This document shows, one piece after another, positions 22,353 through 33,956 of a DNA stretch of 34,019 nucleotides. The DNA comes from Natrinema gari JCM 14663 (GTDB lineage: Archaea > Halobacteriota > Halobacteria > Halobacteriales > Natrialbaceae): contig NZ_AOIJ01000029.1 of the NCBI RefSeq assembly GCF_000337175.1, forward strand, positions 1 through 34,019, read 5' to 3'. The first letter of the stretch is position 1; each line of letters begins with the position of its first letter. Under the pieces are notes generated by a model. That model did no database searches. It saw nothing but the letters and a program-made list of their open reading frames with translations, and had not been told where the DNA came from. A program made the position numbers and the translations under genes.

Positions 22353-24110
22353 ATGGAGTTTGCCACGTTCGCTGACCGTGCCGGGACGATCGAGGCCGAA
22401 CCCGCCGCTCTTGAGGTCGTCGCTCACGTTCGGGACCTGTTCGCCGACGCCGGCTCCGATCTCGAGGTCGTCGCGCGGTTCGTTCAGGGCCGGGTGTTTC
22501 CGGCCTGGGACTCGACGACGCTGGACATCGGGCCGAGTGCGTGTTACGAAGCGATCGCCCGCGCCGCGGGGACGAACGTGAGCAGCGACGACGTAGAGGC
22601 CCGACTCGCCGAGGTCGGCGAGATCGGCGACGTGGCGGCGAATTACGACTTTGGTGGCCAGCAAGGGCTCGGTGCGTTCACTGGCGGTGGCGGAGGCAAC
22701 GGCGGCAATCTCACCGTTCGCGAGGTCCACGAGACGCTCGAGGACATCGCGGCTGCTGAGGGATCGGGGAGCCAGGACCGGAAAGTCGACCTGCTCTTCG
22801 GTCTCTTCAACCGCTGCTCGAGCGAGGAAGCGCGCTATCTGGCGCGCATCGTGCTCTCGGAGATGCGGATCGGCGTAGGTGAAGGGACAGTACGGGACGC
22901 TATTGCCGAGGCGTTCGACGTTCCCACGGATCGGGTCGAACGCGCATTGCAGGTCTCGAACGACTACGGACAGGTCGCACGGACCGCCCGTGACGACGGA
23001 CTCGAGGGACTGGATTCGACTGAGCTCGAAGTGGGTCGCCCGGTCCAGGCAATGCTCGCCCAGACGGGGACGGTGACGGACGCGCTCGAGGAGTGGGAGA
23101 CGGCCGGTGTCGAGTGGAAGTACGACGGCGCGCGGATTCAGTTGCACCACGCTCCGAACAGATCGAACGAATCGACGGCGGAGACCCGCGTCTTTTCGCG
23201 AAACATGGAGGAGGTCACCGACGCCCTGCCGGAAGTCGTCGAGTTCGCCGCGGCCCATCTCGAGGAGCCCGCGATCCTCGACGGCGAGGTCGTCGCGATC
23301 GACGAGGACGGCTCGCCGCTCCCGTTTCAGGAGGTGCTCAAGCGGTTCCGGCGGAAACATGACGTTGCGAAGGCCCGCGAGGACGTCTCGGTGCGTCCCG
23401 TCTTCTTCGACTGTCTGCACGCCGGCGGTGAGGACCTGCTCGCGGAGCCGCTGACGACGCGCCACGACCGGCTCCGATCGGTGCTGGTCGACGCGGACGC
23501 CGACCCCGTCGCCGATGACGAAATCGAGGGACTGTCCCTGCTCTGGCGGACCGACGACCCCGACGAGATCGAGTCGATCGCCGCCGAGGCGCTCGAGGCG
23601 GGCCACGAGGGGATCATGCTGAAAAACCCCGACTCGACGTACTCGCCGGGACGACGCGGGAAGCACTGGCGAAAGCGGAAACCGGACGTGGAGACGCTGG
23701 ACTGCGTCGTGACCGGTGCTGAGTGGGGCGAGGGGCGACGCGCGACCGTCCTCGGTACGTTCGAACTCGCCGTGCGCACGGGCGACGACAGCGAGGAACG
23801 CCGTTCCGCTGGCTCTGCGGTGGAACCGCAGAACCTCGAGACCGTGGGCAAGGTCGCGACCGGGATCACCGACGAGAAACTCGAAGAGTTAACTGATCTG
23901 CTCGAGCCCCACATCACCGTTGCTGAGGGACAGACGGTCGACCTCGAGCCCGCGGTCGTCTTCGAGGTCGGCTACGAGGAGATCCAGTCTTCGCCGACCT
24001 ACTCGTCGGGCTATGCCCTGCGGTTCCCGCGGTTCGTCGGTGTTCGGTCCGACAAGTCTCCCGCGGATGCGGACTCGCTCGAGCGCCTCGAGCGACTTCA
24101 CGACCAGTAG
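22353..24110 (+). CDS. ligA: ATP-dependent DNA ligase
   Basis: Seals nicks during replication and repair. The 585 residues contain an N-terminal DNA-binding domain (1-230), then the nucleotidyltransferase motif KYDGAR with the adenylated K256, motif III-like DCLHAGG, motif V around KNPDSTYSPGRRGKHWRKRKP, and an OB-fold C-terminal domain. Residues 480-494 (SEERRSAGSAVEPQN) form an extra loop between two OB-fold strands (RTGD and NLETVGKVATG) where family members have only a short turn. That loop is encoded by a palindromic DNA segment described separately. A Gly-rich stretch (about 110-117) is another halophile-type insert. Confidence 0.96.
   Translation: MEFATFADRAGTIEAEPAALEVVAHVRDLFADAGSDLEVVARFVQGRVFPAWDSTTLDIGPSACYEAIARAAGTNVSSDDVEARLAEVGEIGDVAANYDFGGQQGLGAFTGGGGGNGGNLTVREVHETLEDIAAAEGSGSQDRKVDLLFGLFNRCSSEEARYLARIVLSEMRIGVGEGTVRDAIAEAFDVPTDRVERALQVSNDYGQVARTARDDGLEGLDSTELEVGRPVQAMLAQTGTVTDALEEWETAGVEWKYDGARIQLHHAPNRSNESTAETRVFSRNMEEVTDALPEVVEFAAAHLEEPAILDGEVVAIDEDGSPLPFQEVLKRFRRKHDVAKAREDVSVRPVFFDCLHAGGEDLLAEPLTTRHDRLRSVLVDADADPVADDEIEGLSLLWRTDDPDEIESIAAEALEAGHEGIMLKNPDSTYSPGRRGKHWRKRKPDVETLDCVVTGAEWGEGRRATVLGTFELAVRTGDDSEERRSAGSAVEPQNLETVGKVATGITDEKLEELTDLLEPHITVAEGQTVDLEPAVVFEVGYEEIQSSPTYSSGYALRFPRFVGVRSDKSPADADSLERLERLHDQ
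23790..23831 (+). repeat. palindromic insert inside the DNA ligase gene
   Basis: Two adjacent hairpins. The first (about 23790-23810) has AGCG-x2-GGAACG facing CGTTCCGCT. The second is CTGCGG (23815-23820), five loop bases, then CCGCAG (23826-23831). They encode an extra 15-residue loop with the core Glu-Arg-Arg-Ser-Ala. A similar two-hairpin order with the same peptide occurs in the HMGS-like gene at 32606-32649. Confidence 0.6.
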
Positions 24111-26957: not shown

Positions 26958-27503
26958 ATGGTTCAGTGCGAGATGTGTGGGGCCGAGACGTCGTCCCCGA
27001 ACACCATCAAAGTCGAGGGCGCGAAGCTAGACGTGTGTTCGAACTGCACGGACTTCGGCACTGAAGTCAAAGACACGTCGAGTTCGAGCGGCTCGACGAA
27101 GTACTCGACCGGGTCGAGTTCGTCCTCGTCGAGCGGGGGCGGCCAGTCGAGCGGCTCGAGTCGGAGTTCCGCCAGTTCGGGCGGCTCGAGCCAGCGCCGC
27201 TCGGACATGTTCGACGACATGGATGAACTCGCGACCGATTACGACGACCGCGTCCGCAACGCACGCGAGGACGCGGGGCTCAGCCAGTCCGATCTCGCGA
27301 ACGAACTCAACGAGAAAGCCAGCCTGATCCGCAAGATCGAACGCGGCGAGACGCTGCCAAGCGACAAGGTCCAGAGCGAACTCGAGGACTTCCTCGAGAT
27401 CAGCCTGAGCGCACAGGGGAGTTCCGGCGAGGACTCGGAGTGGTCCGGCGGCTCCTCGACGGGGAGTTACACCTTGGGCGACGTCGTCAAGCGCAAGGAC
27501 TGA
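26958..27503 (+). CDS. multiprotein bridging factor 1 (MBF1)
   Basis: Archaeal MBF1 homologue, a transcription coactivator-like HTH protein linked to ribosome function. The N-terminal zinc ribbon has C4-x2-C7 and C27-x2-C30. A serine/glycine-rich linker (about residues 38-80) follows, then a cro/C1-type HTH ([20 protein letters not shown], then SLIRKIERG) at about 90-140. The ATG is about 27 bases after TTTATC. The Ser-rich linker is much longer than in most archaeal MBF1 and looks flexible. Confidence 0.95.
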
Positions 27504-32432: not shown

Positions 32433-33956
32433 CTACTCGCCTGCGGGCCGCATCTTGAACCCGTAGCGGGTGACGCCTTCCTGCGTGTAGATCCGTCGGA
32501 TCGTCGTCTCGATCCGCTCACCGACCGAAAAATCGGCGGGGTCGGCATCGGTGCCCATCGCGGGGACGCTGACGGTCCCGTCGCCGCTATCGACGGCTCC
32601 TTTTCGCGGGCGCTGCCCGCTCGAGTGGTCCGCGGAGCGACGCTCCGCGTGATCGCCGTCTTTTCGTTGCGTCTCCGACGCACCGCCCGTCTCGAGCGCG
32701 ACGATCGCGGCCGCGTAGTCGCCCGACTGAGCCTGCTGTTCGGCGAACTCGGGCGGCGCGCCGCCCTGCGAGATGGTCGTGACGGCCTCGATCGTCCCCT
32801 CGCCCGCGAGTTCGACGGGGTCGTAGTCGGCGAGCGCACCGCAGTCGTCGCAGGCACCGTCCGGCGGGAAGGAAAGCGCACCGCACTCCGAACAGCGACC
32901 CGCCTCGAGCCGGTAGCGTTGGGGGAGCGAGCGCCGCCAGGAGGGGACGCTGACGTAGGCACCGCCGCCCGAGGGGGGGCCAGTGGTCACAACGCCGCGC
33001 TGGCGCAGGTATTCGGCGTAGGAAAGCGGATCCGATCCTTCGAGCGCGGTGACGGCCGGCACCTCGCCGTCGGTCTCGACAACGAAGGCGTCCGCGCCCG
33101 CGCCACTGCCCTGGGAGACGGCGAGAACGGATTCGTAGCTGTCCGCGAGTGCGGTCGCCAGCGAGACGGGGACGCTCGCAGCGCCGAGGTCGCCCAGATC
33201 GTGGACCGTCGTGGCGGCCCGTATCTCCTCGGTCCCGACGCCGGCCGCGCCCGCGGCGCGGTAGGGGAGTTTCCCGTCGGGAGCCTGGATCGCGACCGCG
33301 TCGGGATCGGGCTCGTCCTCGAGGCCGGCGACGGCCCCGCCGATCGTCTCGGTAAAGGCCTGCCGGTCGTACTGGGTGATTCCCAGTCCCTGTGTCTCGT
33401 CCTCGCCGGCGTTGCGGAACCGAGTGCCGGGATACGGCGCGGCGTATTCCGCTCGATCGACGATCTCGGTGGGGCCCTCACGCTTGAGGACGAACGCCGC
33501 GCTGCCGGCCCCGGCGGCGTGGTCGATCCCGTCGTCGGGGTCGCCCTGTGGCGCGTCGGCGGCGACGACGAGCGCGGTCGTCGCGTCGGCCTCGAGCGCG
33601 TCGAGACCGGCCCACAGCGCCCGCGTGCCGGCGCGCGTGCTGCCGGAAAACGCGTGGCGAGTCGCCGACTCGGCGAGCGCCAGCATCGCGCCCAGCCGGG
33701 CGGTCAGGTCGTCCTCGGCTGCCGGCGGTCGCGAGGAAGCGAACGCCAGCCAGTCGATCTCGGCGGGGGCCGTATCGGCCGCCTCGAGCGCGCGGGTTGC
33801 GGCCTCGTAGGCCATCGTCAGAGCGTCTTCGTCGGCCGCGGGGACGGCCTTCTGGGTGACGCCGGCGGCGTGGAACTGCCCCCAGGCGTCCTCGAAGGCC
33901 TCGGCGCTGATGCGGAACCGCGGCGCGTACGCGCCGACGCCGGTGATCGCGGCCAT
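32433..33956 (-). CDS. HMG-CoA-synthase-like domain fused to DUF35 zinc-ribbon OB-fold
   Basis: A 507-residue fusion. Residues 1-320 have the archaeal HMG-CoA synthase fold (GVGAYAPRFRI at the start, VPAADEDALTMAYEAA near 38). The catalytic cysteine of that family (in A-C-K-A-G-T) is T107 here (STRAGTRA), and the catalytic histidine of F-H-x-P-N-G-K is Q224 (IQAPDGKL). Residues 345-507 are a DUF35 domain with zinc ligands C355, C358, C369 and C372 and an OB-fold. A charged insert (about 424-460) splits the OB-fold. It starts at the TAATG overlap with a thiolase gene. A non-catalytic scaffold for acyl-CoA transfer to the thiolase is the best inference. Confidence 0.88.
   Translation of the reverse strand: MAAITGVGAYAPRFRISAEAFEDAWGQFHAAGVTQKAVPAADEDALTMAYEAATRALEAADTAPAEIDWLAFASSRPPAAEDDLTARLGAMLALAESATRHAFSGSTRAGTRALWAGLDALEADATTALVVAADAPQGDPDDGIDHAAGAGSAAFVLKREGPTEIVDRAEYAAPYPGTRFRNAGEDETQGLGITQYDRQAFTETIGGAVAGLEDEPDPDAVAIQAPDGKLPYRAAGAAGVGTEEIRAATTVHDLGDLGAASVPVSLATALADSYESVLAVSQGSGAGADAFVVETDGEVPAVTALEGSDPLSYAEYLRQRGVVTTGPPSGGGAYVSVPSWRRSLPQRYRLEAGRCSECGALSFPPDGACDDCGALADYDPVELAGEGTIEAVTTISQGGAPPEFAEQQAQSGDYAAAIVALETGGASETQRKDGDHAERRSADHSSGQRPRKGAVDSGDGTVSVPAMGTDADPADFSVGERIETTIRRIYTQEGVTRYGFKMRPAGE
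32606..32682 (-). repeat. three-hairpin palindromic insert inside the HMGS/DUF35 gene
   Basis: Perfect hairpins TGCGTC/GACGCA (32668-32682), CGCGGAGCG-A-CGCTCCGCG (32631-32649) and GCGGGC/GCCCGC (32606-32620). The middle one encodes Ala-Glu-Arg-Arg-Ser-Ala-Asp on the coding strand. The stretch forms a charged insert in the OB-fold and matches the insert in the DNA ligase in peptide core and hairpin order. Confidence 0.6.

Follow-up and report, generated by a model that had tools for sequence, protein, structure and literature searches.

A dispersed double-hairpin element carried in frame in the DNA ligase and other genes of haloarchaea

Until now, palindromic elements inserted in frame have been regarded as something peculiar to Rickettsia and Wolbachia, with a single further case from a methanogen. 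The Rickettsia palindromic elements (RPEs) are palindromic DNA that lies in frame in many unrelated conserved genes, and also between genes, and their peptide is tolerated in the host protein (PMC2229807, PMC10969869). The Wolbachia palindromic elements, as far as they are cited in PMC2229807, are likewise coding repeats in frame in genes, and protein-coding palindromic repeats fused into genes have been described in Methanocaldococcus jannaschii (Suyama et al., 2005, as represented in PMC2996958 and PMC2229807). Short palindromes are also found in the REP/REPIN sequences with their RAYT transposases and in GTAG- and CGTC-tagged repeats; they often occur as inverted pairs and are sometimes coding (PMC3733652). 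Finally, double-hairpin or repetitive hairpin-forming elements of mitochondrial DNA are potentially mobile and are also found inside genes (PMC2800124).

Here we analyze an in-frame palindromic insert in the DNA ligase gene of Natrinema gari JCM 14663, within a 34,019-nucleotide stretch of contig NZ_AOIJ01000029.1 (the window). The insert is probably a copy of a dispersed, mobile, non-autonomous and GC-rich double-hairpin element that behaves like an RPE and is kept where its frame adds an acidic disordered loop. The original prediction had likened it to an RPE-type mobile element, and as a description of behavior this stands: the element is found in frame in dozens of unrelated protein genes, and orthologs lacking it give it clean ends. 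Membership of the RPEs does not stand, as these are bacterial, measure about 105–150 bp and form one long stem-loop, whereas the archaeal element is 45–63 bp long, about a third of that length, and forms two separate hairpins; no sequence relation has been shown. The M. jannaschii repeats are similarly archaeal, palindromic and coding but belong to another class, and the Wolbachia elements share the in-frame coding palindromes but are bacterial. With the mitochondrial elements it shares the two-hairpin architecture, and we claim no sequence relation. REP/RAYT systems resemble it in their short, often inversely paired palindromes, some of them in coding regions. A GTAG immediately before the 5′ side of stem 1 was seen in 29 of 144 copies, too few to speak clearly for such a system or against it; the haloarchaeal element has no associated Y1/RAYT gene and is mostly coding in our sample, not extragenic. 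GACG occurs near the end of 88 of the 144 copies, where it would be a CGTC tag after stem 2, but we do not claim it as such because GAC is a common codon here. No relevant Rfam family matches the element. An intein was discarded as a candidate, since its self-splicing domain takes up at least some 130 residues and the insert has 15. We found no haloarchaeal report in the full-text literature searched, so as far as that literature shows the family is undescribed in haloarchaea; most subscription papers fell outside the search, and a prior description is not excluded.

The ligase insert and a second copy in the window

The ATP-dependent DNA ligase gene occupies positions 22,353–24,110 of the forward strand, as judged from its translation, a solved relative (DNA ligase 3gde, the closest solved structure, E = 3e-128) and homologs, which are present in 135 of 149 related genomes. 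The insert, at what we call site 1, spans 23,790–23,834 (forward strand; covariance model match at 23,787–23,843) and comprises 45 bp, or 15 codons, encoding SEERRSAGSAVEPQN. The original prediction had the segment in the right place and its length, about 12–15 residues, right, but ended it too early, at 23,831; comparison of alleles with and without the insert set its ends. Both of the predicted hairpins were confirmed. The first, GGAAC-GCC-GTTCC, lies at 23,795–23,807 (forward strand) and is also seen in the model alignment, and the second, GGCTCTGCGGT-GGA-ACCGCAGAACC, an inverted repeat with 10 of 11 pairs at 23,811–23,835 (forward strand), is also seen in the DNA fold. The window holds a single instance of a stem of at least 5 pairs closely followed by a stem of at least 8, each closed by a 3-nt loop, and it is this insert; dinucleotide shuffles of the window contain 0.01 such structures each. 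The insert folded as single-stranded DNA has a z-score of −2.75. The only other double hairpin in the window with a stem of 5 followed by one of 7, at 27,088–27,115, was not recovered by the covariance model R2 (see below) and is probably due to chance.

In the AlphaFold model the insert corresponds to residues 479–493 and is placed between strands 466–474 and 494–500 of the OB fold, in agreement with the loop position originally proposed. It contains the lowest-confidence stretch (478–487, pLDDT < 50), as a predicted disordered loop would. The two closest solved ligases in the alignment lack the insert.

We compared ligase alleles over 110 loci. Most haloarchaeal ligases, including those of most Natrinema, carry the empty allele RAGDD-LETVGKV or a near equivalent, and N. 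gari carries the filled allele RTGDD-[SEERRSAGSAVEPQN]-LETVGKV. A loop shared by most haloarchaeal ligases would have refuted the idea of an insertion; the loop is absent from most of them. Inserts of 14–15 residues at exactly site 1 were found in some Natrinema, Natronolimnohabitans, Natronorubrum, Natronococcus and Natrarchaeobius, and Salinadaptatus has a decayed version, so that filled alleles are scattered across several genera of Natrialbaceae. A second position in the gene, site 2 (forward strand, approximately 22,458–22,465; ...AGSD/LEVVARF, the slash marking the junction), is empty in N. gari, whereas other Natrinema carry the element there. Among ten members of a Natrinema clade, four have only site 1 filled, five have only site 2 filled, one has neither and none has both.

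The second copy in the window lies in an HMGS/DUF35-type gene (32,433–33,956, reverse strand), recognized from its translation, its alleles in the genus and its zinc ribbon domain (zf-ChsH2). The copy is a 54-bp in-frame element in the HAERRSADHSSGQRPRK region at 32,602–32,655 of the reverse strand, with ends ambiguous by about 3 nt, and it is supported by a model match at 32,589–32,654 and by staged alleles. This copy is genuine as well: it has two hairpins of its own, it aligns to the same model as the ligase insert, and empty alleles of the site exist. The element is nested inside an earlier small hairpin insert of the GGTGCGTC-GGA-GACGCAACG type (32,661–32,690, reverse strand) that is known from alleles without the element. 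Most relatives have no insert at all; loci L384 and L386 have the small hairpin insert without the element, L377 has it together with a further short hairpin, and L374–L376 have the full element nested within earlier hairpin inserts. The same assembly also contains a 98% identical C-terminal half of the gene without the element (L402, G000:C30:211886-212770), and whether this is a paralog or reflects a strain mixture is not decided.

A family of copies in unrelated genes

To search for relatives we used two covariance models. R1, built from the ligase site-1 inserts, matched ligase site 2 and the genes for TrpG, ribonucleotide reductase, an S9 peptidase, a glucose/sorbosone dehydrogenase and others, and its weaker matches revealed a longer generic form, (AGT)AGCGCGGAACGnnGTTCCGCGnACnnTC-stem-GnA-stem-GACGACGG. 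R2 was built from seven long copies in other genes, with no ligase or DUF35 copy in its training, and it recovered the ligase insert (E = 1.3e-6 per genome) and the DUF35 insert (E = 1.9e-4 per genome). The absence of further copies genome-wide would also have counted against the original prediction. On the contrary, R2 found 7 matches at E ≤ 1e-3 in the N. gari genome, of which three at least, those in the ligase, DUF35 and uvrC genes, are coding, and 452 at the same threshold in 29 genomes of the genus, with 4–35 in each. Across Halobacteriales, matches at E ≤ 1e-8 occur in 266 of the 392 genomes and in 71 of the 95 genera. These copy counts rest on model searches, and the E-values are rough because the calibration was short. 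A plain DNA search of the genome itself returned no near-identical second copy of the ligase insert, whose kinship to other copies is visible only with a structure-aware model. No match to the element was found in the plasmid collection. The viral contigs yielded a single exact-pattern match, in a gene of unrelated character, which we judged to be chance.

The stems vary together between copies: over 104 copies helix 1 is paired in 99%, and stem cells changed on both sides number 197, against 47 in shuffled and at most 23 in slid controls. Host genes include those for the DNA repair proteins UvrC, a MutS-type ATPase and NAD-dependent DNA ligase (ligA), all three named by Pfam, as well as metS (methionyl-tRNA synthetase), trpA, trpB (a PALP-family enzyme, TrpB by sequence), trpD (TrpD-type transferase), trpG (glutamine amidotransferase), pyrF (OMP decarboxylase) and the ribonucleotide reductase large chain. 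Further Pfam hosts are a dihydrolipoamide-type oxidoreductase, a P-type ATPase, CNNM/CBS, an AMP-binding enzyme, phosphomannomutase and a protein of the argininosuccinate-lyase type. The trpA, trpB, trpD and trpG genes with elements, assigned by sequence or Pfam, come from nine loci. As the element is present in most haloarchaeal genomes, and in core genes of DNA repair, translation and biosynthesis, this culturable group offers a tractable setting for studying the entry of selfish DNA into proteins.

The element is carried in a preferred frame. We placed 144 matches against reading frames by ORF length and third-position GC; 114 could be assigned, and 106 of these are read on the sense strand in codon phase 0. 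Counting distinct coding sites, 56 of 63 share this orientation and phase (binomial p = 4e-36 against an expected 1/6), as do all 22 assignable cases among the best 24 matches of the order-wide search. The R2 search reads both strands regardless of genes and therefore does not favor a phase; the share of coding copies, about 79%, is however not a genomic rate, since the copies that seeded R2 were themselves coding. Nor do stop codons explain the bias, because four of the other five frames are stop-free in at least 89%. Phase 0 is the only acidic, hydrophobic-poor frame: its peptide, of the pattern S-A-E-R-x-S-A-D-x-x-A-x-E-P-R-D-D-G-E, has a mean net charge of −3.0, compared with +0.9 to +4.8 in the other five, and 5% of its residues are hydrophobic, compared with 13–35%. 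The bias is most simply read, by inference, as selection in a salt-in cell for loops that are acidic and hydrophilic. Nevertheless, the charges of the frames differ by construction of the sequence, and acidity as the selected property is thus only a correlation. Through the frame choice it can be tested whether new protein sequence has to pass an acidity filter in salt-in organisms, and the "halophilic insertions" of 14–20 residues in haloarchaeal enzymes may be derived from the element rather than adaptive.

Alleles, rival explanations and mobility

Three sites, two in the ligase and one in the DUF35 gene, have clean filled and empty alleles, and nesting recurs at another locus, L355, which carries a 48-nt element within an older element found alone in L241. 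From these alleles, the nested insertions and the dispersion of the family we infer active mobility, which has not been observed.

The alternative that best survives is that the insertions are old and have spread between strains mainly by homologous recombination or gene conversion, with precise losses, while the element itself is now immobile. We regard this as a possibility to be kept in mind, though well behind a mobile element. On a ligase tree of 40 rows from which the insert columns were excluded, site 1 requires 8 changes, and sister rows differ (L028/L051 and L033/L034); the site-1 insert therefore comes and goes, and gain, loss and allele exchange all fit, as the data do not separate them. 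Moreover, the target sequences of the two ligase sites are near-identical (GCGGGCGACGAC/CTCGAGACCGTC and GCGGGCGACGAT/CTCGAGATCGTC, the slash again marking the junction), which would help conversion, so the filled/empty pattern could partly reflect exchange of alleles rather than fresh transposition. Recombination, however, accounts for spread within a single gene, not for more than 50 unrelated sites, and it does not explain copies nested in older copies at different loci.

We consider it improbable that the hairpins act as control elements at the RNA or mRNA level and are retained for a function in each host gene. Such a function would agree with the stems of orthologous copies, which are 91–100% paired and usually diverge less than unpaired positions, but the hosts are unrelated, the alleles are freely gained and lost, no Rfam family corresponds, and covariation within ligase site 1 alone is weak (24 of 500 shuffles scored as high). 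Equally doubtful is the repeated local formation of palindromes by template switching at short repeats, without any mobile element. Stem sequences do vary widely while the architecture stays constant (L213, L216, L338), small single-hairpin inserts also occur (L384), and template switching may contribute to the renewal of stems; yet copies from unrelated genes have primary sequence in common along the entire element, with E-values down to 1e-23, which a local origin would not give, and for the main family this explanation is already disfavored. Ordinary length variation of an acidic, disordered loop that contains a palindrome by chance, suggested by the unrelated short extensions that three other ligases (L125, L118, L094) have at site 1, is refuted by the excess of the architecture over shuffles and by the recovery of the insert with a model from other genes.

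For a mobile double-hairpin element, the course of events that we propose is as follows. Genes would receive copies at many different positions, probably in the form of single-stranded DNA that folds into hairpins, a route we infer, as we do the enzyme that might handle this DNA in trans. Where coding DNA is hit, most insertions would do damage, and the survivors would be those that keep the frame and whose orientation and phase give a stop-free, acidic, hydrophobic-poor peptide. The frame statistics, together with the ligase model, suggest that a salt-in proteome can accommodate such a peptide as a flexible loop on the protein surface.

What mobilizes the element is open: a trans-acting enzyme and a host DNA-copying process are both possible. 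Filled/empty pairs have sharp ends but no common target-site duplication or motif, and several split points are optimal. The target-site duplication expected of a MITE with terminal inverted repeats is not consistently present at the pairs compared. A Y1 transposase was rejected as mobilizer as well: its gene counts and those of the element are uncorrelated (rho = −0.15), and the N. gari genome has no Y1 transposase gene. At the Y1 loci checked, the sole transposase class considered, no strong element match flanks any Y1 gene. A more far-reaching, speculative version, to which we give only an outside chance, is an order-wide coding double-hairpin system that needs no dedicated transposase to spread (hairpins might, for instance, direct the copying of single-stranded DNA), has its retained frame set by the acidic salt-in proteome and steadily supplies acidic loops to housekeeping enzymes.

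Two further kinds of sequence were observed alongside the family. Intergenic REP-like relatives (GCGGCGCGTAGCGCCGCGAACAGGCGAACGG...) with the two-hairpin plan occur at nine loci in other genomes (L288–L290, L307, L310, L320, L324, L335 and L348) and at three in N. gari itself (L248–L250); by their appearance they form a non-coding sister family. Long low-complexity arrays (e.g., SKRDSEAPRASEASRAERSSADSRAAESSETAKPSRDDGSRKAASEPPRDDGETAS) in MutS-like and other proteins (L238, L283, L287, L299) look like piled-up remnants of the element.
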